Virus record (IMG/VR): IMGVR_UViG_3300046337_000126
Coordinates: 1 to 21,093 of that record
DNA length: 21,093 nt
Reading direction: 5' to 3' (one strand)
Source: a virus
Part shown: in pieces, positions 3,498-21,093 of the stretch
Layout of the letters: each line of letters starts with the position of its first letter
Numbering within the stretch: position 1 is the stretch's first letter
The notes under the pieces: generated by a model
What the model was told of the DNA's origin: nothing
The model's database searches: none
The model's input: only the letters and a program-made list of their open reading frames with translations
Program-made: the position numbers and the translations under genes

Positions 3498-4817
3498 TTA
3501 CGCTTGAATTTTGAAAACACCTAACTTCTTAGGGTCGATTATCTCAACACCTTCTTGGCTGTAAATATCACGTCTGTACTCTCTAGTATTGTTGGTCTTG
3601 CCAGGAGACAATGCACCAGTCTCAACCTCCATATACTTTAGTGATTTTTTGCCATCAAATGCCATGTATCTATTTCTGATTCTAGGAACAGAAGCACCCC
3701 CTTTAATCATCGCCTTGTCTGTAGGAAGCAAAAGGATCTCTTTCTTAAATGCTTCATATCCTACTGCACCCGTCAATCCCTTATGCTCCAAAGGCTTAAA
3801 TCTTTGAATGTGTAAGGTATAACCACCAAATCTTATTGACTTTGCACCGAAAGCTAAAGAAATATCTTTACTACCATTATAGGCTGCATAAGAAATTCCA
3901 CCACCCGAAAAGGCTGCGTTAGTTGCTGCGTTTACGTCAATTGCCAAGTGAGCCGTTTGACCCGCCAAAGCCATATATTCTGTTCCGCAACGAGCTGCAT
4001 CCATTAATACCGCAAGGGCTCTACCATCAACAATAATGTCAAAAGTTCCAGAAGAAGCAGTTTGTCCTGTAAAACCAGTGCCATTTGCAGTAGTTCTAAT
4101 TCCCTCTGTAAAGTAGGTCATCTTTCCATCAGCAGCAGCAAAACTATCCTTTACTCCAAATATCTTTTGGTTAGCTACTTGCATTCTATGAATCAATAAT
4201 TGTTGAGCCAATACTTTGTCCAACATATAGTACTGTCCATTGTACTCAATCTCTACCTTAGTAGCACCTCCAATATCTGTAATAGAATCTCCAGACTCAA
4301 ATATTTGGATGTTGTTTTGACGCTTCAATAGAGTTGGTTGTCTTACATCCGTAGAGTTTGAACCACCTTCACCACCAGCATTTGATAAGATAATCAAAGA
4401 CATTGCATCAGTAGTCGCAGGAATGTTTGTGCTACCAATTGGCTTAACCACTACATCCCAGTTTGAACTATTAGCAGTAACAGACCACACAAAACCAGTT
4501 ACACCGTTTGGAAACAAGATTGTCTCTCTTACCCTTGGAACAGCAGCAGTTCCCAAGAACACGATAGTTTTATTTGCATTTCCAGTTCCTAAGGTAGTAG
4601 TACCTACAGTAGTTGCTATCGACTGCACTGTATCTTCCTCAAGGTGGTCAAAAACAGGAACTCCTGTAATCTCTTCTCCACCAGACATCATATCCATCCA
4701 ATCAAAGTAGCCCATTTCGTCTCTGTAAGCATCTACGTACTTAGCTAAGACTTGTCTTTGAGCAAAACCACTAGCTAGAGTGGCTATTCCGTTTATCGTT
4801 ACATTAGTATTTGCCAT
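3498..4817 (-). CDS. Major capsid protein (probable)
   Basis: A protein of 439 aa, rich in Ala, Gly and Thr, with no signal peptide or membrane helix, starting MANTNVTINGIATLASGFA. Residues ~20-60 (QRQVLAKYVDAYRDEMGYFD) look like an N-terminal arm followed by a helix. The rest alternates beta-rich and Gly-rich stretches, and the C-terminal part (RNRYMAFDGKKSLKYMEVET) is basic. I assign it as major capsid from position and size: it lies directly after an acidic scaffold-like protein, downstream of terminase and portal, and is flanked by a strong promoter upstream and a strong terminator downstream, as expected for the most abundant virion protein. The HK97 fold is expected for tailed phages but I cannot see it directly. 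The start is preceded by AGAAAAAAGAA, an A-rich leader without a Shine-Dalgarno site. Confidence 0.75.
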   Translation of the reverse strand: MANTNVTINGIATLASGFAQRQVLAKYVDAYRDEMGYFDWMDMMSGGEEITGVPVFDHLEEDTVQSIATTVGTTTLGTGNANKTIVFLGTAAVPRVRETILFPNGVTGFVWSVTANSSNWDVVVKPIGSTNIPATTDAMSLIILSNAGGEGGSNSTDVRQPTLLKRQNNIQIFESGDSITDIGGATKVEIEYNGQYYMLDKVLAQQLLIHRMQVANQKIFGVKDSFAAADGKMTYFTEGIRTTANGTGFTGQTASSGTFDIIVDGRALAVLMDAARCGTEYMALAGQTAHLAIDVNAATNAAFSGGGISYAAYNGSKDISLAFGAKSIRFGGYTLHIQRFKPLEHKGLTGAVGYEAFKKEILLLPTDKAMIKGGASVPRIRNRYMAFDGKKSLKYMEVETGALSPGKTNNTREYRRDIYSQEGVEIIDPKKLGVFKIQA

Positions 4818-4850: not shown

Positions 4851-5963
4851 TCAACTACCCAACAAGGCAGTCGCAAAGCCTGTTAAGTCTTCGGGTAATC
4901 CAGTGTCTTTATTCACCGAACCTCCACCTAACGAGGTATTTCTTGACGCAGGAGAACTCGTATTCTTAAAGCCTCCAACCACTTGCTTCTTCCCTATGGC
5001 GATACCTTTCTTTATTAGGATGTTATCATGAGATTGTGGATTGATTGCGTAATTCGCCCACTTGGCATACGCTTCATACATAAACTCACCATTTTTATCC
5101 AAGAATAATTTCTTGATAAACCCAACGGGGTCAACAACTGATTCAGCAATCGACTTCATGTTATCTATTGGAACAAAAATAGGCCCATCTTTGTCTTGTA
5201 TAGATACTTTCAAATCTTTAAGTACCTCCGCAAAATCACTTTCAGCACGAGATATTAGAGACTCTTTCTCTGCAATCATGTCTTCTTCGCTCATTTGTGG
5301 TGCAGCTTCTTGCTGATATTCTATTTCTACGTCACTAGAATATTTCTCTATTATTTCTGTCCTCTTTCTTTCGAGATTGGACTTGATCTTTGATGCCTTT
5401 AACACCAATTCTTCTTCGTACAACTTACTATCATCGGGGTCTTCTAAGTCATAACTGTCTTCTAATTCCCTAACTATTTTGCTAAGTTTCTTTTTTATCA
5501 ACCCTTCCGATGCTCCTTGGTTATCAGGATTAGCACGTATGTCAAATTCTATAAGTTCTAGTGGGCTTAGTTTCTCGTAAGACTTTCCTAAGATACCACT
5601 AATCTCTTGAAAACCACCCTCGTTTTCGCTAAGGTAATTGTATAAAATCTTTTGTGTATCGTTCTTGAAAGGAATGGAAGTTTTCTTAGTTTCTAGTATA
5701 GGCTCCTTCTTTTCAACTACAACTTCTTCTTCTGGCTTTTTCTCAATTGTAAACCTGTCCTCTATCTCTTCTTCCTCTACATCCGATACAACTTCCTCTA
5801 CATTTTTTTTTACATCTTCTACTATGTTTTCTTCTGTCTTTGGTTCGATAACTTCTTCTTGAGTATCTTCTTCTTCTCCAACCCTTTCGACAAGGTCGTT
5901 ATTTTCAAAGACCGCCTTTAATAAAGCATCGTCTGTACTTACTTGTTCAATAACTTCTGCCAT
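4851..5963 (-). CDS. Probable capsid scaffolding protein
   Basis: A protein of 370 aa. Residues ~1-95 are strikingly acidic and low in complexity, with many Glu/Val/Asp/Lys (for example VEEVVSDVEEEEIEDR). The middle (~100-260) is charged and predicted helical or coiled-coil (LERKRTEIIEKYSSD, AEKESLISRAESDFAEVLKDLK). The last ~60 residues are Gly/Ser/Asn-rich (NTSSPASRNTSLGGGSVN) and end in DLTGFATALLGS. This combination, directly upstream of the probable major capsid gene, is typical of tailed-phage scaffolds, which bind capsid through a short C-terminal segment and leave the mature head. No protease motif is evident. A good Bacteroidetes promoter lies 20 nt upstream of the ATG, so this gene and the capsid gene likely form their own transcription unit. 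Confidence 0.7.
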   Translation of the reverse strand: MAEVIEQVSTDDALLKAVFENNDLVERVGEEEDTQEEVIEPKTEENIVEDVKKNVEEVVSDVEEEEIEDRFTIEKKPEEEVVVEKKEPILETKKTSIPFKNDTQKILYNYLSENEGGFQEISGILGKSYEKLSPLELIEFDIRANPDNQGASEGLIKKKLSKIVRELEDSYDLEDPDDSKLYEEELVLKASKIKSNLERKRTEIIEKYSSDVEIEYQQEAAPQMSEEDMIAEKESLISRAESDFAEVLKDLKVSIQDKDGPIFVPIDNMKSIAESVVDPVGFIKKLFLDKNGEFMYEAYAKWANYAINPQSHDNILIKKGIAIGKKQVVGGFKNTSSPASRNTSLGGGSVNKDTGLPEDLTGFATALLGS

Positions 5964-6018: not shown

Positions 6019-8355
6019 CTACTCTTTTTTATCTGTTTCTGCCTTAATCCCCTCTTTAATTACGTCACTTTGGGTTTCTACAGCCGTTTTTTGTGCTACT
6101 GACTGTGCTGACCTATCAGAACTATATATCTTAGCATCTGCTTGTAGCTTATTTCCATCTACTCTTCCGGTTACTTCTATTTCCTTCATGTACACTTCAA
6201 ATCCGTACTTTTCTCTAATTATAGTCAGTTCTGCTTCTGTGCTAATCTTCTTAAACTCCACATCCAACGAATGTTTGGCTTGAAGCTCTTGCATCTTTGA
6301 CTCTGTAGCTGCTTTTGCAGATTCAATCTGTGAGCGCATAGCCATCTCTTGATTCTGAATAGTTCTTTTTTGTTGTTCTTCTGCATTCTCTTCTACTCTA
6401 TTCGCAAGTACAGCTTCGGCTTGCTTTAAGTTTTTAACGTTTTCTACTACAAAGGAATCCGCTATAGTGATTTGGTTGCTCTGAATTGCTAAAGCGACTT
6501 TTTCTTGTAACCTTTGGTACTGTGCATCCGTAGGTTCGTCTCTTACCTCAATTCCAAGCTCTCTAGTGGTATAATTTTCTCCGAACTTAAAGAAGTTTAT
6601 ACTTTCTTCTCCTATTGCATTGATGTAGTTGTCGAGTCTTCCATCTTCCGCAGCATCTTGTACTCTTAGTAAAAGTCCGGTGGCTAGAGATTCAAAACAA
6701 GTTCTTTCTGCCCTTGCCATGTACTCAATACTATTATTAGTACTTTCACTTGCTCTTTCGGCTACAGCTTTAAGTGTTCTTTCGCCTGGCGTGCTTCCAT
6801 CAGTCAAGTCGTTAAACCCTCCTATCTGTTGGAATAAGCCTATGCCGTTCTGAATTTCGTTAAAGTATCTACTTGCTTCATCTCCTAAGCCGTTGTTTAG
6901 TTCGGTTATAGGTGCAGACCTACTAAAGCTACCGTCTTCTTTTATAGAGCGATAGATTAAGCTACCCGTCTTTTTCCAGAAGTCATACTGTTCAATAGCC
7001 GTTAGTGATTGTCCACCTTTACCGATAGGAACGTTTTCTAAAGCGGTAATATCGATTAGAATACCCTTCTTTTTAGCATTTACGATAACGTCTTGGTACT
7101 TCATAAAGGCAATTTGCACTACGTCAACGATAGGAATGTAGTTTTCTGACATCCCCCTGGTTTCCATATTGTCAAGATTCGGAGCAAATACGTGGTAGCA
7201 CGACTGAACATCAGCTAGATTATTTGCCGCCCTTTTCATATCTGTCTGTATTCCACAACCAAAATAGATGTCTGTTCCTATTACCCACTTTGCAGTGTAC
7301 TTAACTGGATAGTCAGTAGTCTTATAGTCAGAACCCTTTTCTATATAATTGACACTTTTCACCCTCTTGGTCTTTACCTCGTTTCCTAACTTGTCTTTTC
7401 CAAACTGTACTACGTAAGAATCTTCTCCGTCAAACTCTATATCCAATACCTTTACTCTTTCGTTTTCGTAGTCCTTTGGATCAACGTGACTCTTATCGAA
7501 ACTTTCATAAGAGTAAGTGCTTCCTCTCTTTTTAAATAGTTCTACGTATTGTTCTTCCCGAATCTCTTTCTTTATATCTAATTGTTTTAAGTCTCCTATG
7601 GTATAGTCTAATACTTCGCCACGATAGAAAGAGTCTCTAAAATCAGAAAACCTACAACGGGAAACAATAAAATCTCTTACATCAACAAAGCGTTCTTTTA
7701 TATCTCCATTAATATCTACATAGTCCTTATATCCAATGAAGCCGTAATCGTGAAGTTGCTCTATGTTCATTTGCCTTATAGCATCATGCCCACAGTTGTT
7801 CATAATTATAGCTAAGATTTGCTCGGCCTTAATCTCATAAGCAGACTTATAGCCATACTTCATGTATATGTCTAGTTGCTTTTGAGTCTTAAACCCTTGG
7901 TCGGGTGCTTCAACAAGGTCTTCCGGCATATCATTCTCCACAAGGGTTTTCCTAAGTTCTATCTTGGACAAATTTCTTGCGTAGTACTTATTCTTTTCTT
8001 CTATTGAGATTGGATCTATTGCAGTTAGGTTGATGCCGTAAGAGTTCTTGAGTAGTGTGGTCTTAGTCATCCTTGCATACTTAGACACAATAGGCAAAGG
8101 CTCTTTAACTGCTTTTAACCATGACTTATCTGCATTGGCCGAATCAATATCTAGTAGATTAAAGTATTTAGCCATGTCCTGTCTACCAGTCATGTACCTT
8201 CGAATATTGCTGTATCTATCTCTTCCGTTGTAGAAAGATTGGGTATTCATACTGTTCCAATCAGACCAACAAGCCTTGATATAGCTTTGAATCCAAGTTT
8301 TGCTACCTCTGTTTGGGTCTAGTGGGGATGGGAAAGAAGTGTTTTTGTCTATCAT
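6019..8355 (-). CDS. Portal protein (probable)
   Basis: A protein of 778 aa when started at ATG 8355 (MIDKNTSFPSPLDPNRGSK). An ATG at 8385 is possible but would overlap the terminase gene by 29 nt. The ATG at 8355 sits one base past the terminase TAA (TACTAAAATG), a common coupling arrangement, so I prefer it. The protein is large, soluble and mixed alpha/beta, without membrane segments. The last ~130 residues are a long charged helix rich in Gln, Glu, Lys and Ala (EENAEEQQKRTIQNQEM onward), as in portals of large podoviruses. Order is the main evidence: terminase large subunit immediately upstream, scaffold and capsid immediately downstream. The portal forms the 12-subunit ring at one vertex through which DNA is packaged. 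The length resembles portals of crAss-like phages, but I cannot confirm membership. Confidence 0.8.
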   Translation of the reverse strand: MIDKNTSFPSPLDPNRGSKTWIQSYIKACWSDWNSMNTQSFYNGRDRYSNIRRYMTGRQDMAKYFNLLDIDSANADKSWLKAVKEPLPIVSKYARMTKTTLLKNSYGINLTAIDPISIEEKNKYYARNLSKIELRKTLVENDMPEDLVEAPDQGFKTQKQLDIYMKYGYKSAYEIKAEQILAIIMNNCGHDAIRQMNIEQLHDYGFIGYKDYVDINGDIKERFVDVRDFIVSRCRFSDFRDSFYRGEVLDYTIGDLKQLDIKKEIREEQYVELFKKRGSTYSYESFDKSHVDPKDYENERVKVLDIEFDGEDSYVVQFGKDKLGNEVKTKRVKSVNYIEKGSDYKTTDYPVKYTAKWVIGTDIYFGCGIQTDMKRAANNLADVQSCYHVFAPNLDNMETRGMSENYIPIVDVVQIAFMKYQDVIVNAKKKGILIDITALENVPIGKGGQSLTAIEQYDFWKKTGSLIYRSIKEDGSFSRSAPITELNNGLGDEASRYFNEIQNGIGLFQQIGGFNDLTDGSTPGERTLKAVAERASESTNNSIEYMARAERTCFESLATGLLLRVQDAAEDGRLDNYINAIGEESINFFKFGENYTTRELGIEVRDEPTDAQYQRLQEKVALAIQSNQITIADSFVVENVKNLKQAEAVLANRVEENAEEQQKRTIQNQEMAMRSQIESAKAATESKMQELQAKHSLDVEFKKISTEAELTIIREKYGFEVYMKEIEVTGRVDGNKLQADAKIYSSDRSAQSVAQKTAVETQSDVIKEGIKAETDKKE

Positions 8356-8356
8356 T

Positions 8357-10384
8357 TTAGTAAAAACTTTCTGCGTTATAAACAACTTGTTTTGGCTGCT
8401 CTTGTCTAGTTGTTCCTTCGGTTCTCTCTACAAATGAACCAAGTAACGCCCATCCTGCTGCCATTGCTGCATCAAATTTAGTAGAATTTTTTAAATTAAA
8501 CTTATTCCAATCCAATAAAAGTTTCATAAATGGAACTTTCTGTATATTATCACGTATATAAATGCTTGTAGAGTCGGCTGCGGACTGTTTATTTTTAGTT
8601 GAAGCAGGGACTCCATCCGTATGCCCGTCAAAACTAGCAACAAATTTGGACATTCCAGAACTATTTAAGTAATTAATTAGCAATTGCTTGTTATTCTCTA
8701 CTAAAATTTCTGCTCCAGACATAAATGCGAGTTTTGAAATGTCTTCATGGAACTCGTCAAGGTCTTCTGGCCGCATTAAGTATTCGGCAATAAAAGTTTC
8801 TGATAGTGGATTGCGTGGTTCGTACTTAAAGTATAGGTAAGCGGCTGCATTTGAACCCGTATATCCCTTCTTTACCATCTTATGGTCAAATGGGTCAACT
8901 CCTATCACTCTTTTTAAGGCGTTCTTAGGAATTACGTTCCCCCACATATCCTTAGTAGTGTTTTCTAACTTACACTCTGCTACTACATCAAATTTTTTAT
9001 TAATCCAAAACCTTCCATCCTTAGATTCTACAAAGTCAACACCACTAAGCCTTACATTATTCTTCCAAACAAAGTTTCCTCTTATTAAAAGGTCTTCCTT
9101 ACTCAAGGACATTAGAGCAGATTTAGCATTTTCAATGGCTATTTGGTCATAAATACCTTCATCTGATGGTGTCCAGAATGCTTCTTCTACATTTAAAGGG
9201 TATTTACGGATAAAAGAAACTCTTGAATTAGTGTCTGTTCCAAATGATTCTCTCCAATTCTCTAAGGTGATTCTATTTTCTTCTATATTTGGTTCTCCAT
9301 ACTCGTTATAGCTATAAGCACGTTCAGCACTAAGGAAATAACGGTACATTCCGGACTTTGTTTCATTGATACGTGGGTCTTTGGTTAAGTGATCTGATTC
9401 ATCCCACAATTTCTGAAAGTTTCCTTCATCATAACTGTCAAAATCTCCAATATCTTCTACAGTAGTGGTTGCAAGTACCTTTCCTGCTATCTTTCCATTC
9501 CTAAATAGGGCTGGTTTTACTATGTAGTGTCTATCGTAAGCGGAAGCGTGTTCTACCTTTCCACATTCATCATCAACTTTAAGTAAAAGTGTTTCTCCGT
9601 CATAGGCTCCTTCTGCGGAAGACCGGTAATCTATTTCTGATACTAATTCTTTTATGTCGTAGTTGTCTATATTGTCTTCTGATGAACGACTAGAAGTCTT
9701 ATTGAAAGAAATTTTATTCTTGGGAGTACTTCCTAGAGTAGTGTCCATTACGGGCTTAAAAATTCTTTCTAATTTCTTCATAGGGTTTACTACCTGGAAA
9801 GAAAAAAGTCTTTTAGCATCAATATCTGCTTTGCTTTGTATTCCGCTTTTAGCTTCTTTTGCCCTTGAAGTTCTGTACCATATTGTACACCCTGCCCTTA
9901 CTGATTTGCCTTGTTGCCTTTGAGTAATCTCAAGCATACCGTAGGATTTAGGGTCATTCCAACAGTACTCCCAGAAGTAATGCCACTCTACGTCTGTGGT
10001 TCTAAAGTCGGGGGACAATCCTTTAATGCTCCAGTGACATAAGAAGAAATAGTGTTGTCCTGTAAGGTAGATTGCTTTGCCTTTGAGATAAAACCAAAAA
10101 CCATTCGTTGTTCTATCCCACTCCCTTTCTCTGTAAATCTGTAAGTCTCTGTCAAAGAAGTCGGGGTCTACCTTTCTTCTTGTGTGTTCGTCATCGAGTC
10201 TTCTTTTAACGTTATGCGGTTTCTTAGGTATCTCCCAGCACTGCTCTTTTATCTTGTCGGAACGAGAGAAAACGCCCCTATGTTCTACTTGCCCTGTGAA
10301 TTGGTTGAATACGTAGCCTTCTGGGGGTAGATTTACTATTAACCCTTGAATATCTAATTTATCACCTCCAATGTCTTTATACAT
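8357..10384 (-). CDS. terL: Terminase large subunit (packaging ATPase and nuclease)
   Basis: A protein of 675 aa. Visible motifs in order: a deviant Walker A, TQRQQGKS (~154-161); Walker B with catalytic acid, LLLKVDDE (~266-273); coupling motif ATTTVED (~305-311); then an RNase H-like nuclease domain with acidic residues in VIGVDPFD (D497), VENNKQLL (E563) and STKFDAAMAAGWALLG (D638). This is the standard two-domain layout of phage TerL, which drives DNA into the prohead and cuts the concatemer. An N-terminal region of ~120 residues before the ATPase core is rich in aromatic residues and longer than in many TerL proteins. The gene overlaps the upstream 197-aa gene by 8 nt and is followed at once by the portal gene. 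The family is clear; I did not assign a packaging type. Confidence 0.93.
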   Translation of the reverse strand: MYKDIGGDKLDIQGLIVNLPPEGYVFNQFTGQVEHRGVFSRSDKIKEQCWEIPKKPHNVKRRLDDEHTRRKVDPDFFDRDLQIYREREWDRTTNGFWFYLKGKAIYLTGQHYFFLCHWSIKGLSPDFRTTDVEWHYFWEYCWNDPKSYGMLEITQRQQGKSVRAGCTIWYRTSRAKEAKSGIQSKADIDAKRLFSFQVVNPMKKLERIFKPVMDTTLGSTPKNKISFNKTSSRSSEDNIDNYDIKELVSEIDYRSSAEGAYDGETLLLKVDDECGKVEHASAYDRHYIVKPALFRNGKIAGKVLATTTVEDIGDFDSYDEGNFQKLWDESDHLTKDPRINETKSGMYRYFLSAERAYSYNEYGEPNIEENRITLENWRESFGTDTNSRVSFIRKYPLNVEEAFWTPSDEGIYDQIAIENAKSALMSLSKEDLLIRGNFVWKNNVRLSGVDFVESKDGRFWINKKFDVVAECKLENTTKDMWGNVIPKNALKRVIGVDPFDHKMVKKGYTGSNAAAYLYFKYEPRNPLSETFIAEYLMRPEDLDEFHEDISKLAFMSGAEILVENNKQLLINYLNSSGMSKFVASFDGHTDGVPASTKNKQSAADSTSIYIRDNIQKVPFMKLLLDWNKFNLKNSTKFDAAMAAGWALLGSFVERTEGTTRQEQPKQVVYNAESFY

Positions 10385-13835: not shown

Positions 13836-14507
13836 TCAACTCTTCTTTAGTGCCGGTGTTTCTTCCTTAAATTTGAGTATATTATTAATTAATAAAAACT
13901 CTTCTCCAATCCTTCCTCTAACAAACTTACAACTTAATTCTTTTTCTATAAGACATTGTCGGTCAATATCAGCACTTTTCATAAACTTAGACTCGTGATA
14001 AGATTCATCAAACTCAACACATAGATTTAGACTTTCGAAATAATAATCAACCCTATAATTTAATACTTTGTATTGTGCTATGAAAGGGGTGATTCCAGAA
14101 AATACAATAGAAAATAGCTCTGTACATCTATTTTCAAAACCAAATGGCACAATTGTTTCTTTGTTATTAAACAACCTATCTTCAACATAATTAAAAATTT
14201 CTTCGTGAACCCATACGCATTTAGTACTTCTTGCTCCTGTTGTAATCTGGAACCCATTTTCTTTTAAATAAGCTGAACCTATGTTTGGTGGCATGTGAAC
14301 TCCAAAAGTCCCTTCAAACCAACTTCTAAAACTCATACTCAAAAGAATTCTTCCTATATTTTTTTCTACCCATCCATTTTCACCCCTTGCTTGAGTATAG
14401 GCTTCTCTCAAATCAGATAAGTTTAAGAATCCAGTTTCTTTTTCTTTTCTGATTAATATTCCAAACAAATTCCTATCTTCTTTTTTTATCACAATGCTTT
14501 GTTTCAT
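13836..14507 (-). CDS. KilA-N-like domain fused to a PD-(D/E)XK nuclease
   Basis: A protein of 223 aa. Residues ~26-112 resemble a KilA-N DNA-binding domain: GFLNLSDLREAY, KNIGRIL, then G-STKCVWVHEEIFNYVEDRL. Residues ~125-215 resemble a small restriction-type nuclease: ALNYRVDYYF-like beta strand with D154, then NLCVEFDESYHE (E165 with nearby D167 and H171), and DIDRQCLIEKELSCKFVRGR. This matches the DUF559/Vsr-like layout that I know from phage proteins with NRDIEY..RQ..I...L.C.FIR. KilA-N proteins are often antirepressors or regulators in phages, and fusions to nuclease domains are known. Catalytic residues look intact. The gene overlaps the upstream 48-aa gene by ATGA. Target and role (host DNA degradation, mobile-type endonuclease or regulation) are not determined. 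Confidence 0.65.
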   Translation of the reverse strand: MKQSIVIKKEDRNLFGILIRKEKETGFLNLSDLREAYTQARGENGWVEKNIGRILLSMSFRSWFEGTFGVHMPPNIGSAYLKENGFQITTGARSTKCVWVHEEIFNYVEDRLFNNKETIVPFGFENRCTELFSIVFSGITPFIAQYKVLNYRVDYYFESLNLCVEFDESYHESKFMKSADIDRQCLIEKELSCKFVRGRIGEEFLLINNILKFKEETPALKKS

Positions 14508-14910: not shown

Positions 14911-15128
14911 ATTATATTATTTAAATTGTTTTCTTCCATAAACTCTTCATACTTTCTCCAAGCCTCTACTTGCCCCTTTGTTATATCGGGGTCGCAAGGA
15001 CATTCCTCTATAATCTTTTCTGCCAATTCACACCTCTTATACAAATAGTAGCACACCTTTAAAAGTTCTTGAACTTCTGGTTCTTCTAGGAGGTGGGTGT
15101 TGGCGTTGAATAGTTTTTCGTAGTTCAT
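14907..15128 (-). CDS. Small hypothetical protein
   Basis: A protein of 73 aa, acidic and helical: EEPEVQELLKVCYYLYKRCE, then a CPCDPDITKGQVEAWRKYEE segment and EENNLNNII at the end. The two nearby cysteines (CPC) plus two earlier ones could in principle bind a metal, but the spacing is not a known motif. It overlaps both neighbours by 4 nt (ATGA), so it belongs firmly to this operon. Function unknown. Confidence 0.6.
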   Translation of the reverse strand: MNYEKLFNANTHLLEEPEVQELLKVCYYLYKRCELAEKIIEECPCDPDITKGQVEAWRKYEEFMEENNLNNII

Positions 15129-15661
15129 TTCTTAACTGTTTTAAATCCCTTAATATCTTCTTTCTTTAAATGTGTAGCGTATTTTTTCAATCGGTTACCC
15201 TTAAAAAAGAAGAAGGGGTTAATCCAGTACACATCAACACTAAAGGATGCCCTATTCAATATCTTGTGTTCAACCAAATCAGCAACAGCACTGATATATG
15301 TCTCCGACCTCTTTATTCCCGACTCTTCCATATACGCATGACGGTTAATCCAAATCAAATCTACACCATGTTCAATCTTCTGTCCAATCCAATTCAATAA
15401 GTGATGACCTCTAGGACTCAACATCGCCAGGTGTAATCTTCTGTCAGGACTGCAATAAACTTTAACAAAAGAATCAGACTCATACAAAGCAGTATCAGAC
15501 ATAATAAAAGAATCATCTCCATCTCCTACACGAGTTTCTTGGCCTATAACATCAAAAGATTTGGCTTTAATAGTAAAGTCACTCAAGAACGGATTATTTA
15601 AAGCATTAGAATACTTTCGCAACTCGTCATCAGTGAAACCCTTCTTCTTACGAATACCCAT
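15125..15661 (-). CDS. RepL-like winged-helix protein, possible replication initiator
   Basis: A protein of 178 aa. The first ~65 residues are polar and variable. From ~66 on it looks like a winged-helix domain: FVKVYCSPDRRLHLAMLSPR, helix LLNWIGQKIEHG, IWINRHAYMEESG as recognition-helix lead-in, SETYISAVADLVEHKIL as the next helices, and the wing SVDVYWINPFFFFKGNRLKKY. The last element (VYWINP-FFFKG-R) is typical of RepL-type plasmid initiators and of related phage replication proteins. It is the first gene of the leftward operon and lies at the edge of the repeat-rich non-coding region, where an initiator would be expected next to its origin. A transcription regulator with the same fold is the main alternative. 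A TACCTTTG -7 element stands 23 nt upstream of the ATG. Confidence 0.6.
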   Translation of the reverse strand: MGIRKKKGFTDDELRKYSNALNNPFLSDFTIKAKSFDVIGQETRVGDGDDSFIMSDTALYESDSFVKVYCSPDRRLHLAMLSPRGHHLLNWIGQKIEHGVDLIWINRHAYMEESGIKRSETYISAVADLVEHKILNRASFSVDVYWINPFFFFKGNRLKKYATHLKKEDIKGFKTVKK

Positions 15662-15684
15662 ACTATTATTTCCGTTTTATTTCA

Positions 15685-15692
15685 CAAAGGTA
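15685..15692 (-). promoter_or_regulatory. -7 promoter element of the leftward operon
   Basis: On the minus strand this reads TACCTTTG, a full match to the Bacteroidetes -7 consensus TAnnTTTG, 23 nt before the ATG at 15661. No TTTG is found 19-21 nt upstream; instead a pair of 12-bp direct repeats occupies the -33 region, suggesting that a bound protein helps or blocks the polymerase. Confidence 0.55.
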
Positions 15693-15723
15693 CTAATAAA
15701 ATAGATATTATCTAATAAAATAG
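15693..15723. repeat. Pair of perfect 12-bp direct repeats next to the leftward promoter
   Basis: CTAATAAAATAG occurs at 15693-15704 and again at 15712-15723, 19 bp apart. The first copy touches the -7 element of the leftward promoter and the second covers the -33 region, so these look like operator or activator sites, possibly for the winged-helix protein encoded next to them. Confidence 0.6.
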
Positions 15724-15747
15724 TAATTATTTTTATCCTAATTCTAT

Positions 15748-15961
15748 ATTTACGGTTTTTTTCTTTTTGGCTTTTCTCACAACTGTCTGTTAGTAAGTTA
15801 ATTAACCCCCATTTTTTAATAATTCAAAAAGGCTATTAAGTAATACTATATAGCCCTTTTGAAAAATATTCAAAACAATAAAAAAAACATCACTGAATGT
15901 GTCTACCGCATCGTTTTTAGCCAAAAACAAAGATAAAACAAAACATAAAAAAACCGTAAAT
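15748..15961. repeat. Perfect 15-bp inverted repeat with distant arms
   Basis: ATTTACGGTTTTTTT at 15748-15762 is the exact reverse complement of AAAAAAACCGTAAAT at 15947-15961. The arms enclose 184 bp that include a separate stem-loop at 15823-15863. The CCGT core also recurs at 15971-16024. Confidence 0.55.
15823..15863. other. Stem-loop with 14-bp arms, possible two-way terminator
   Basis: TTCAAAAAGGCTAT (15823-15836) pairs with ATAGCCCTTTTGAA (15850-15863) with a single mismatch around a 13-nt loop. An A-run on one arm and a T-run on the other give it the form of a bidirectional terminator, though no gene ends nearby. A structured origin element is the alternative. Confidence 0.45.
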
Positions 15962-15970
15962 AAAGTGTTT

Positions 15971-16024
15971 TTACCGTTGAAACGCCCTCTACTTCATAAA
16001 AAAAGAAATTCTTACCGTTGAAAC
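15971..16024. repeat. Two 13-bp direct repeats, 41 bp apart
   Basis: TTACCGTTGAAAC occurs at 15971-15983 and 16012-16024. The GTTGAAAC end recalls CRISPR repeats, but there are only two copies, the unit is short, and no array or cas genes are present. Confidence 0.5.
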
Positions 16025-16412
16025 CCAATACACTTCCTACCCACACCAAATCTTATTATTGTTAAAAACTAATTATTTTATCAAAAATTGACAAATTCTA
16101 CTACCCTTCTTTTCCCATAATCCTTTACTATTTATTTACCACTTCCAAACCACTTCATATTTACTTGTCACACTTTATCATATTTTTAAATACTTCGCTA
16201 CAATCAATTTAAAATACAGAACGATACAATCTAAAGCCACTAACAAATAACGCTACCACGCCACTTAAAAACACCTTAAAAAGACTATTAAAAACAGGGG
16301 TATCAAAATTACCGCAATAACACAAAGTGTATTTGTCTGTTTTAGTTAATTTTATACCATATCACAAACTAATAACAATAAAAAAAATAAAACTTGAAAA
16401 AAATAAAGATGA

Positions 16413-16443
16413 TAGTTAAGGAAGGTAGTTAAGGAAGGTAGTT
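16413..16443. repeat. Tandem 13-bp repeat, 2.4 copies
   Basis: TAGTTAAGGAAGG is repeated head to tail at 16413-16425 and 16426-16438, then continues as TAGTT. It stands at the point where the strand changes from C-rich to G-rich. Confidence 0.6.
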
Positions 16444-16908
16444 CCAAAATAAAGATGTTAGTTTAAAAAAAATCTCAATGAAAATTAAAAAACTGTTAGA
16501 TAGTTGTTGAGTAGTTTTGAAAAAAGAACGAAGAAAAAAGGGTTGTGAAAAAGAAAAATAATTTAATTTACTAAAAAAAGTGATAGTCATTCAATAGCTA
16601 GTTTTTGATGTATTGAAGAAAAAAGAAAATAAATACAAATAATTAATTGCTAGATTTTAACGCCTGAAAGGATGAATGTAAATAGTTGAAAGAAAAAGAG
16701 TTAAGAGAAAAAAGTATCTGGAAGCATGAGGTAGATAGAAATGTAAAGCATTGAAAAAGAGATGATTAAAAGAAAAACTATTGAAAAAAAAGAGCTAGAA
16801 GGATGAGATAGCGAGGTTATATATATACGATCACCACCATCCCTGTCATCGGGTTCCACAATAATTTCACCTCGTCCCTCTCAATTTTACTTTTCACTTT
16901 TCGTTTTC

Positions 16909-16961
16909 AATTAGATATTTAGTCACTTATCTAATTATATATTTAGTCGCTTATCTAATTA
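16909..16961. repeat. 24-bp-period direct repeat with a dyad
   Basis: A 23-bp unit containing TTTAGTC(A/G)CTTATCTAATT is present at 16915-16937 and 16939-16961 with one difference. In front, AATTAGATA (16909-16917) and TATCTAATT (16928-16936) form a 9-bp dyad with a 10-bp spacer. It resembles a regulator-binding or iteron site. A related sequence, TTAGATAAGACTAA, occurs in the opposite direction at 17268. Confidence 0.6.
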
Positions 16962-17088
16962 TTATTATTACAATTATTATTATTATTTTTTTTTAATCTT
17001 TTTTATGATATTGTTTTTTTTATTCATTTCTTTTTCGCATGGGAAAATTCTGTAATAGTAATACTATCATCTTTGTTAGTTTTACTAC

Positions 17089-17142
17089 TAGTCTATCAAT
17101 TTAATAGAGTAGTAATAGTCTATCATTTTAGTAGAGTAATCT
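17089..17142. repeat. 27-bp tandem repeat, two diverged copies
   Basis: TAGTCTATCA-(A/T)-TTTA-(A/G)-TAGAGTA is found at 17089 and again at 17116, a period of 27 bp with 22 of 27 positions the same by eye. The partial dyad CTAT...ATAG inside each copy suggests a protein-binding unit. Confidence 0.5.
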
Positions 17143-17208
17143 ATTATTATTATTTTAAAAAGTTTTTGTTATTTTATTTGTAATTGTAATTACTAATCGT
17201 TATTCGCG

Positions 17209-17224
17209 TGTATGTGCACATACA
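17209..17224. promoter_or_regulatory. Perfect 16-bp palindrome
   Basis: TGTATGTGCACATACA is its own reverse complement and lies 22 bp before the 22-bp iteron-like array. It contains GTGCAC and is richer in G+C than the surrounding DNA, so it is unlikely to be a chance product of A/T composition. It is probably a site for a dimeric protein. Confidence 0.5.
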
Positions 17225-17245
17225 TATATATTTTAAGGTTAATTG

Positions 17246-17311
17246 TTAGATGACTCTAACTTTGGAATTAGATAAGACTAATAATATTTTTAGACAAGAC
17301 TAAATCTTATA
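17246..17311. repeat. Three iteron-like repeats at an exact 22-bp period
   Basis: TTAGATGACTCTAA (17246), TTAGATAAGACTAA (17268) and TTAGACAAGACTAA (17290) start exactly 22 bp apart, about two helical turns, so bound proteins would lie on one face of the DNA. The shared frame is TTAGA-N5-CTAA, with copy 2 and 3 differing at one base. Spacing and sequence are typical of initiator-binding iterons or of operators. A -7-like TAACTTTG at 17257 overlaps copy 1. Confidence 0.6.
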
Positions 17312-17590
17312 CCTGTTCATATATACTAATAATCTCCTTTATCTTTATTCTTAATCATTCTAATTCCCTTCCTCAATTCAATTATCTTTAATTCTATTCT
17401 ATTTCATTCAATTCTATTCAATCTATTACAATTCTATTCTTTTTTGTTCTATTCTATTATTATTGCTAGTATTCTTATTATCTATCTTTTTTACCCAATT
17501 TTTTAATCTTTTTTCAATTATTTTTATCTTTTTTGTACTATTCCTAGAAATTCATATAAACTTTCTAATATTTATAATCTTTTTTTAATT

Positions 17591-17598
17591 TATATTTG
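17591..17598 (+). promoter_or_regulatory. -7 element for the rightward genes
   Basis: TATATTTG is a full match to TAnnTTTG and is the last such site before the rightward genes. No TTTG is seen at the expected -33 distance, so the promoter may be weak or dependent on an activator. It would give a leader of about 110 nt before the small ORF at 17715. Confidence 0.45.
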
Positions 17599-17714
17599 CA
17601 AGGTATTTATTATTGTGCATATCTTTGTTTCAACAAAAGGGAACAACGGCAAAACATAGCAATAGCATAGTTCTTTAATTAAGTACCTTTTGATAAACAT
17701 TAAACATTAAGACA

Positions 17715-17777
17715 ATGCAGAAATTAAAAAGTACTATGCAGAAGGTTTATTTAATCAAATCTTTAATTATACACTAA
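17715..17777 (+). CDS. Possible 20-aa leader peptide
   Basis: ATG at 17715 encodes MQKLKSTMQKVYLIKSLIIH, stopping at 17777, one base before the ATG of the next gene. The start follows the leader AAACATTAAACATTAAGACA, the kind that precedes many genes in this arm. Basic N-terminus and hydrophobic C-terminus are visible. It could couple translation to the next gene or be chance. Confidence 0.35.
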   Translation: MQKLKSTMQKVYLIKSLIIH

Positions 17778-17778
17778 A

Positions 17779-18168
17779 ATGACAATAGCATCAAACTACG
17801 ACTTCCATCTTGAAACCTTAATGCGAGATGCGGAAAACATATTCGACTGTAAAGCCTATGACGCAGTTTTAAGAGCTGCAAAAGTTCTTTTTGGAGATAG
17901 AAATGTAACGTATAACGAAAGTACAATTTTCATTAAAGATAAAATAACACTTGAATTGTCTTTATCATGGAATGAGCAAAAAGTCTATATTTATACCTAT
18001 TTTGACCTTGATTTAATGAAAGGAGATAAATTAGAAAATGCAAGTGATGTAAACAATGAATTGCGTAGGTTAAATGGAACGTTCCGACTCTTTGGATTAA
18101 ACGAAATAATCCAATACTTGCAAATTAAAGAAATTGAAAATAGATTTATTAAACAACATGAAGGATAA
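17779..18168 (+). CDS. Hypothetical protein, first rightward gene
   Basis: A protein of 129 aa that I do not recognise. The N-terminal part looks helical (ETLMRDAENIFDCKAYDAVL), the middle consists of beta-type strands (NVTYNESTIFIKDKITLELS, KVYIYTYFDLDLM), and the end is helical again (GLNEIIQYLQIKEIENRFIK). It is soluble and shows no DNA-binding motif. It is the first sizeable gene of the rightward set, right after the non-coding region, so early expression is likely. The next gene probably starts inside its last codons. Confidence 0.6.
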   Translation: MTIASNYDFHLETLMRDAENIFDCKAYDAVLRAAKVLFGDRNVTYNESTIFIKDKITLELSLSWNEQKVYIYTYFDLDLMKGDKLENASDVNNELRRLNGTFRLFGLNEIIQYLQIKEIENRFIKQHEG

Positions 18169-18394: not shown

Positions 18395-18558
18395 TGCAAA
18401 GCTACATATTAAGAGAAAATGTATTATCTGATGATGTTTTATTATTAGCAGATGATAAGAAACACTTCAACTGTTACCCTAACCAAAAAATAGACAGATT
18501 GGTAATAGTCATGTGTCTTAATGATGTGGAATTTCAATCAAAATATGTAAACTATTAA
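18394..18558 (+). CDS. Small hypothetical protein (54 aa)
   Basis: The frame from ATG 18394 encodes MQSYILRENVLSDDVLLLAD and ends with DVEFQSKYVNY. It is joined to the previous gene by a TAATG overlap, and the next gene starts 4 nt later. This tight packing and ordinary codon use make it a likely real gene. No family is recognised. Confidence 0.5.
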   Translation: MQSYILRENVLSDDVLLLADDKKHFNCYPNQKIDRLVIVMCLNDVEFQSKYVNY

Positions 18559-18562
18559 AATT

Positions 18563-18679
18563 ATGAACTACCTAAGAACCAAAAAACAAAACTCCAAATT
18601 TCGGGAGGAGTTAAATTGGATCCCGATTTATGTATTTATAGTAGCTGTGTTGGCTGCTATGTTATTAGTAACAATTTAA
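18563..18679 (+). CDS. Small single-pass membrane protein (38 aa)
   Basis: The frame from ATG 18563 encodes MNYLRTKKQNSKFREELNWI followed by a hydrophobic helix PIYVFIVAVLAAMLLVTI to the C-terminus. The basic, polar N-terminus and a terminal ~18-residue hydrophobic segment make a one-helix inner-membrane peptide, with the N-terminus probably cytoplasmic. Phages often encode such peptides for lysis control, superinfection exclusion or envelope modification; none can be chosen here. The next gene follows after 12 nt. Confidence 0.55.
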   Translation: MNYLRTKKQNSKFREELNWIPIYVFIVAVLAAMLLVTI

Positions 18680-18691
18680 ACATTAAACAAA

Positions 18692-19042
18692 ATGAGAACG
18701 AACTCAAAAGTAGTAAGAGATTTAATCAAAAAACATATTTTAGAATGTGTTTACGATTATGAGGAAAACGAATTTTCTACATTAAAAGACGCTTGTAATC
18801 ACTTGTATAGTGAATTTAAAAGAGTAACGGAAGGAGACGGTTATCTTAGAAAAAAGACCTAACAAGAACGTTTTAGTTGGTACTTATCAGGATTGCCTTT
18901 TAGATTCCATTACTCGAATTATGATATAACTTGTTACTTAAATGACCTAGGAATAAATCCAGAAAACAAGTCTTTTGATTCAGAAAAAAGCATGGTACTG
19001 TATCACTATTTAATATTTTCAGAAACATTAAAAAATAAATAA
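18692..19042 (+). pseudogene. Hypothetical gene interrupted by an in-frame TAA
   Basis: ATG 18692 opens a 56-aa frame (MRTNSKVVRDLIKKHILECV ... YLRKKT) that stops at TAA 18860-18862. The same frame then continues for another 59 codons (QERFSWYLSGLPFRFHYSNY ... YHYLIFSETLKNK) to TAA 19040-19042, just before the next ATG. Both halves look like coding sequence: together they make a 115-residue protein, whereas the second half has no ATG near its start. I recall uncharacterised Bacteroidetes phage proteins with a W-x-x-GLP segment followed by a C-terminal helix, and the joined product would fit that size. A nonsense mutation is most likely. Alternatives are stop read-through or a sequencing error. 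The first half may still be made. Confidence 0.55.
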
Positions 19043-20574: not shown

Positions 20575-20720
20575 TGAAAGTAAAGCTAAGTAATGTTGGG
20601 AATCCTGACTACGGCCAAGACCATGAAATTACATCACATAAGGTTGTTGTAAATGGAATCCACAAAGCAAACTACTTTTTAAGTAAAATTGACTCGGTAC
20701 AAAAACATAATAGAATTTAA
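20574..20720 (+). CDS. Small hypothetical protein (48 aa)
   Basis: The frame from ATG 20574 (TAATG overlap with the previous stop) encodes MKVKLSNVGNPDYGQDHEIT and ends VNGIHKANYFLSKIDSVQKHNRI at 20720. It is packed between its neighbours, with the next ATG 13 nt further. Basic and polar, no recognised family. Confidence 0.5.
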   Translation: MKVKLSNVGNPDYGQDHEITSHKVVVNGIHKANYFLSKIDSVQKHNRI

Positions 20721-20733
20721 ACAATTAAACAAA

Positions 20734-21093
20734 ATGAAACATTTTAAACTAACATCAGAATTTGTAATAAACTCATTCAGCGTAAAGCTATTTAGAATAG
20801 AGGCAACAATAGACTCTAAGTATGTAAAAACTGGAGAAAAAGGGGGATTCATAGAAAAAGAAGAAAACCTTTCTGGCGATGCTTGGGTTTCTGGCGATGC
20901 TTGGGTTTATGGCAATGCTCAGGTTTATGGCAATGCTCAGGTTTATGGCAATGCTCAGGTTTATGGCAATGCTCAGGTTTATGGCAAGGCTCGGGTTTCT
21001 GGCGATGCTTGGGTTTCTGGCGATGCTCAGGTTTCTGGCAAGGCTCGGGTTTCTGGCGATGCTCAGGTTTATGGCGATGCTCGGGTTTTTGGC
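20734..21093 (+). CDS. Hexapeptide-repeat beta-helix protein (partial, cut at the right edge)
   Basis: ATG 20734 is preceded by TTTAAACAATTAAACAAA. The first ~45 residues (MKHFKLTSEFVINSFSVKLF ... KTGEKGGFIEKEENL) form a cap region known before such repeats, with the usual KTGEKGGFIE turn. From 20872 to the edge there are 12 full hexapeptides of the form (S/Y)-G-(D/N/K)-A-(W/Q/R)-V plus the start of a thirteenth. Repeats of this kind build a left-handed-type or polymer-forming beta-helix and are frequent in phages and prophages (YdcK-like proteins). The function is unknown; surface or virion attachment, or a scaffold, is possible. The stop is beyond the window. Confidence 0.8.
   Translation, partial: MKHFKLTSEFVINSFSVKLFRIEATIDSKYVKTGEKGGFIEKEENLSGDAWVSGDAWVYGNAQVYGNAQVYGNAQVYGNAQVYGKARVSGDAWVSGDAQVSGKARVSGDAQVYGDARVFG
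20872..21093 (+). repeat. 18-bp tandem coding repeat, 12.3 copies to the edge
   Basis: Units such as TATGGCAATGCTCAGGTT and TCTGGCGATGCTTGGGTT follow each other without gaps, four consecutive copies (20908-20979) being identical. Only a few positions vary (TAT/TCT, AAT/GAT/AAG, CAG/CGG/TGG), so copy number probably changes by slippage or recombination. Confidence 0.9.

Follow-up and report, generated by a model that had tools for sequence, protein, structure and literature searches.

Two gene arms and the gap between them

The DNA analyzed here (the window) is a linear viral fragment of 21,093 bases, the whole of its record. Sequence comparisons place this 21-kb fragment among podoviruses of the Bacteroidota-infecting kind, as kin of Cellulophaga phi40:1 and the Flavobacterium elemo phages. 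The nearest described relatives (Cellulophaga phi38:1/phi40:1, the elemo phages and Maribacter phage Panino) are podoviruses of Flavobacteriia at 20-28% identity, and the top environmental matches to the terminase stand at 31-36%. The late arm is read leftward on the minus strand and includes predicted genes for the terminase large subunit (8357-10384; phrog_6681, E=6e-52), the portal protein (6019-8385; phrog_6547, E=5e-63) and a virion structural protein (3498-4817; phrog_13704, E=7e-11). The predicted product of 13836-14507 weakly resembles DUF559/restriction-endonuclease-like nucleases (E=0.003), and a similar-looking gene is found at 6112-6720 of the viral contig L012. The first rightward gene (17779-18168, plus strand) was assigned no function from the ORF list and profile searches. 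Farther along the rightward arm are a second ORF-poor stretch of 505 bp (18395-18899) and a YdcK-type beta-solenoid protein (20689-21093), which is coded by an 18/54-nt tandem repeat and cut off by the window end.

The two arms diverge at 15662-17778, a non-coding region of 2117 bp without an ORF of at least 80 amino acids and the longest ORF-free run in the window. The preliminary description had called this DNA gene-free, as it is: the G-rich part carries 16-21 stop codons per plus-strand frame. A hidden or recoded gene in that part was considered and ruled out, all three kinds of stop occurring in all frames. Searches for tRNA genes and known RNA families found none.

Abutting the gap on its left is the first leftward gene (15125-15661, minus strand), which encodes a predicted protein of 178 amino acids. 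Pfam RepL (PF05732) scores this protein at 20.1 bits (E=5e-4), against a gathering cut-off of 20.3, while an HMM built from 7 plasmid RepL sequences gives it 38.9 bits (E=5e-11), the next of 1449 ORFs reaching 7 bits; the C-terminal INPxxxFxGxR motif is kept in the alignment. The product is on this evidence identified as a homologue of the RepL family of plasmid replication proteins. Closer kin were sought in viral and genome contigs and none was found, and a single-sequence AlphaFold model (pLDDT 35) was set aside. The RepL of P1 works at an origin within its own gene, so membership of the family does not imply an adjacent intergenic origin.

The gap is dense in tandem repeats. Seven arrays are present, where 100 second-order shuffles gave a mean of 0.6 and a maximum of 3, and the summed repeat score of 449 compares with maxima of 126 in second-order and 172 in third-order shuffles. 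On the plus strand lie a 24-nt iteron-like unit repeated 2.5 times (AATTATATATTTAGTCACTTATCT, 16909-16966) and a 27-nt unit repeated twice (..TAGTCTATCA.TTTA.TAGAG, 17083-17136), which have a TAGTC..TATC core in common; ATTCT and 20-nt arrays follow at 17390-17458 and 17496-17534. These lie in or at the edge of a T-rich segment (16911-17630), a candidate unwinding element, where G+C is lower than anywhere else in the window (about 22%; low point 17001-17500). On the minus strand, at the opposite rim, a 19-nt direct repeat occurs twice (15693-15730), a candidate operator or initiator site. A putative AT-rich unwinding stretch and iterated sites are thus placed in the gap beside a candidate initiator gene, an arrangement looked for in an origin. 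A cluster of DnaA boxes is absent, the exact TTWTNCACA occurring once in the gap (16544) and once elsewhere in the window (19060).

Signals for outward transcription may be present at both rims. The motif search employed the Bacteroidota promoter consensus, and a match to it, TTTG-N21-TATCTTTG (17595-17627, plus strand), precedes the rightward gene at 17779. The 19-nt repeat abuts a -7-like box (TACCTTTG, 15685-15692, minus strand) ahead of the RepL-like gene, which lacks a -33 TTG at the expected distance. On that reading of the two sites, most of the gap belongs to neither messenger. The likeliest rival to an origin starts from these rims: the region would be a large divergent promoter/operator region and no origin, its repeats binding regulators, the RepL-like protein serving as a winged-helix regulator and the skew being incidental or a side effect. 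We regard this as somewhat unlikely. The canonical promoter at the right rim and the box at the left rim agree with it; however, the approximately 1.9 kb between the promoters is far above what promoters need, as are the excess of repeats and the AT-rich low point.

The skew switch and its possible causes

The preliminary description reported an abrupt inversion of GC skew within the gap, and its counts were reproduced exactly: 73 C to 15 G at 16021-16320 and 15 C to 60 G at 16501-16800 (Fisher p = 3e-16). Its strength is likewise borne out, as the most extreme 300-bp skews in the gap lie 111 apart, whereas in 1000 first-order Markov shuffles of the gap this spread averaged 37 and never exceeded 62. 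The change falls at approximately 16320-16394. The GGAAGG repeat reported at the switch is a 13-nt unit repeated 2.4 times (TAGTTAAGGAAGG, 16413-16443, plus strand), just to the right of it.

On the plus strand, a segment with more C than G (15662-16330; C 20%, G 8%) gives way through a switch zone (16331-16394) to an island with more G than C (16395-16810; A 50%, G 20%, C 5%). The cumulative-skew minimum of the window falls at 16393, and its largest swing between adjacent 300-bp intervals (+91) at 16324. Three further features were absent from the preliminary description. The two sides of the switch are unlike in kind, the left being depleted of G and the right purine-rich (70% A+G) and depleted of C; the skew reverses a second time at about 16811 (swing -70), where a C-rich block (16811-16910) begins; and 17301-17600, which includes ATTCT arrays, is very C/T-rich, with a skew of -0.75 that exceeds that of the stretch first reported. 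Skews of at least 0.6 in either direction occur in only 28 of 19,633 300-bp intervals of the relatives' contigs examined. All 28 belong to the three nearest relatives (G001-G003), some near the junction and some elsewhere.

The arm-wide skew has a different source. Counts on the coding strand of the leftward arm are 1600 G to 530 C at codon position 1 and 767 G to 726 C at position 3; four-fold sites are balanced (189 G to 211 C, p=0.29). This places the skew of the arm at codon position 1 and makes it an effect of coding; neutral strand bias is undetectable. In elemo, a GroEL/GroES pair running against the direction of its arm inverts the local skew, and this flip, together with the unskewed four-fold sites, indicates that skew in the phi40:1/elemo group tracks the orientation of genes and codon position 1. 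A cumulative minimum can point to an origin when it reflects replication strand bias; here the arm skew is found only at codon position 1, and the minimum at 16393 is consequently no evidence of an origin. Skew alone is insufficient as proof of one. Since four-fold sites are unskewed, the non-coding skew needs a local cause; it is made neither by codons, as the preliminary description had held of so strong a skew in gene-free DNA, nor by neutral replication bias.

A further rival reading is that one or two non-coding RNAs run outward from near 16350, C-poor in either direction (8% leftward, 5% rightward). C-poverty could possibly let untranslated RNA escape Rho; by the same token, RNA entering from outside would be C-rich and Rho-sensitive. 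The C>G and G>C runs are symmetric about the switch, and the leftward strand folds better than its shuffles (z=-2.5, 0/20). It also includes a symmetric hairpin (AAAAAGGCTAT/ATAGCCCTTTT, 15826-15860), noticed by eye and by folding, that could end such an RNA and possibly act as a two-way terminator; a terminator scan did not pick it up. The rightward strand, in contrast, folds no better than shuffles (z=+0.5), Rfam gives no match, promoter-like sites in the gap are no commoner than in shuffles, and the C-rich block at 16811-16910 interrupts the rightward pattern. The same fold score and Rfam result fail to support a long structured RNA from the G-rich part, and outward RNAs as a whole seem improbable. 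The stretch 16330-17150 was also considered as a long inverted repeat or a structured RNA, and this was rejected, as its fold was no better than that of shuffles.

The corresponding region in related phages

Divergent gaps of approximately 0.3-2 kb are present in elemo and in the relatives G001, G002, G003, G005, G007, G012 and G013; in phi40:1 the corresponding place is taken by 1.4 kb of poorly coding sequence. In G001 (94), phi40:1 (88) and G003 (69) no C-to-G switch elsewhere in the genome is as large as the one in the gap, and in G002 this holds only marginally (65 versus 62 elsewhere). In elemo, G005, G007, G012 and G013 the switch in the gap is not the largest, being absent or unexceptional. 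The divergent region of the Manatee Spring phage, missed by a stricter gap definition, contains a G-rich repeated island, and the largest swing in the part of that genome examined falls there; GC-rich CGCGTGTGTG/GGGTCGGGTCGTCGCG tandem repeats occur in this region (L003:8180-8400). In relatives with a clean junction, the cumulative-skew minimum falls inside the divergent gap or within approximately 1.5 kb of it. An automatic junction scan of partial loci had too few loci that extend to the junction.

The sequences themselves are another matter. G001, G002 and G003 have in common, at 76-77% identity, some 220 bp of non-coding sequence adjoining the switch, with ATCCACAGTA inside the conserved part of G001 and G002; the window lacks this element. 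Comparison of the gap with the gaps of five relatives revealed no shared sequence above chance or low complexity, and distant blastn searches of phage records returned chance-level or low-complexity matches only. The architecture of the gap is recurrent and not universal, and by these comparisons its sequences are without detectable homology.

A conserved non-coding stretch of approximately 220 bp lies at the divergent junction of three related viral contigs (L012:4430-4650, L014 about 4960-5100, and L171); its pattern is ACCCCTACCCAGT..TTTGCGTTT..ATAACCCCCACCC..ACATCCACAGTA, and the core occurs in three contigs of the whole viral collection. Separately, two copies of a 20-odd-nt repeat with a partly palindromic core, TCCACCGTATGGATACAA, precede a late promoter in L012 (about 4980-5150) and in the gap of G003, and this repeat is likely an operator.

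The comparison bears on two of the alternatives. That the gap is neutral leftover or recently acquired DNA, with a composition that has no function, would accord with the lack of sequence common to relatives' gaps and with the many slippage-like repeats. A like switch at the corresponding place in four relatives, the conserved non-coding stretch in three and the absence of such skew at the window's own neutral sites all speak against it, and we consider it decidedly improbable. A control region without an origin gains from the relatives, in whose corresponding gap late promoters and repeated TCTCCACCGTATGGATACA sites are found, and the gap is present as well in relatives where no RepL was detected.

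Scanned with the profile made from 7 plasmid RepL sequences, the ORFs of elemo, phi40:1, the partial Manatee genome and G001-G005 yielded no RepL. A different search of elemo, Manatee, phi40:1 and Panino also found none, a weak result as the same search missed the window's own gene. With no RepL detected in those described relatives that were tested, initiation in them presumably differs. Phage phi40:1 (Pervagoviridae, KC821612) resembles the present virus in its homologous terminase and portal and in its long, poorly coding divergent region, with the switch at 33831 and a G-rich island to about 34130; it differs, RepL aside, in having tRNA genes on the late side and no non-coding sequence in common. 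In the elemo phages (Elemovirus) the arms are arranged in the same way, the head genes are homologous and the gap measures about 1 kb, but these phages show only a weak local switch and carry other replication genes.

A probable control region that may include an origin

The region at 15662-17778 is probably the control region of this phage. We lean, tentatively, toward its being an early/late control region that may well include a replication origin. An origin was one of three suggestions in the preliminary description and is still the best guess among them, on grounds other than skew: a RepL-family gene lies next to the gap, tandem repeats are dense in it, its G+C is low and its position recurs in relatives. 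The gap is, moreover, the longest ORF-free stretch and lies where gene orientation diverges, and the divergent gap holds the largest C-to-G switch in phi40:1 and G001-G003. Small Bacteroidota RepL plasmids (Elizabethkingia anophelis NZ_CP115635, Bacteroides fragilis CP103205 and NZ_CP054004) likewise have direct repeats of approximately 20 nt before the gene for a RepL-family protein, the tandem units that precede repL being about 22 nt long. They are replicons of 2.7 kb with different repeat sequences, and the likeness is not proof of related origins. A specific resemblance of the repL upstream region to that of Elizabethkingia was dropped, other AT-rich pieces of the gap scoring equally high.

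Against an origin stand the skew, which follows gene orientation and so lends no support through its cumulative minimum; the strong switch that is missing or unexceptional in five relatives; the described relatives in which RepL was looked for and not detected; the lack of shared gap sequence; and the position of the phage's remaining replication genes outside the 21-kb fragment. The repeats could instead be operators or products of slippage.

If there is an origin here, the RepL-family protein would bind the repeated sites (direct repeats of 24, 27 and 19 nt), the adjoining stretch of very high A+T (approximately 16911-17630) would open, and replication forks would depart both ways from the gap, while promoters at both rims would drive the two gene arms outward. 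The C-to-G switch would be a locally maintained composition, for example of protein-binding or strand-exposed tracts, and not a by-product of genome-wide strand bias. We infer, and do not observe, initiation by RepL at this place, the repeats as its sites and a function for the skew. A bolder version, which we think rather unlikely, is that a plasmid RepL replicon has been captured by a tailed phage: an initiator of the RepL family would act on a compositionally partitioned origin of about 2 kb between the arms, with the C-poor outward strands as a selected signal.

PhicrAss001 (PMC6235969) has been described with two oppositely oriented gene arms, inverted in GC skew and with regulators near their junction, so this kind of arrangement is already known. 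The likeness lies in the opposed arms with inverted skew; there the inversion was described between genome halves, whereas here an extra-strong inversion, beyond the codon effect, lies within the non-coding gap. The unusual points are how strong that inversion is and that a plasmid-type RepL gene lies next to it.

For genomes of the phi40:1/elemo kind, a caution follows: what the cumulative-skew minimum shows is how genes are oriented, by way of codon position 1, and not an origin. We know of no mapping of where or how replication starts in podoviruses of this kind. The region at 15662-17778 would offer them a short candidate origin with a named candidate initiator.
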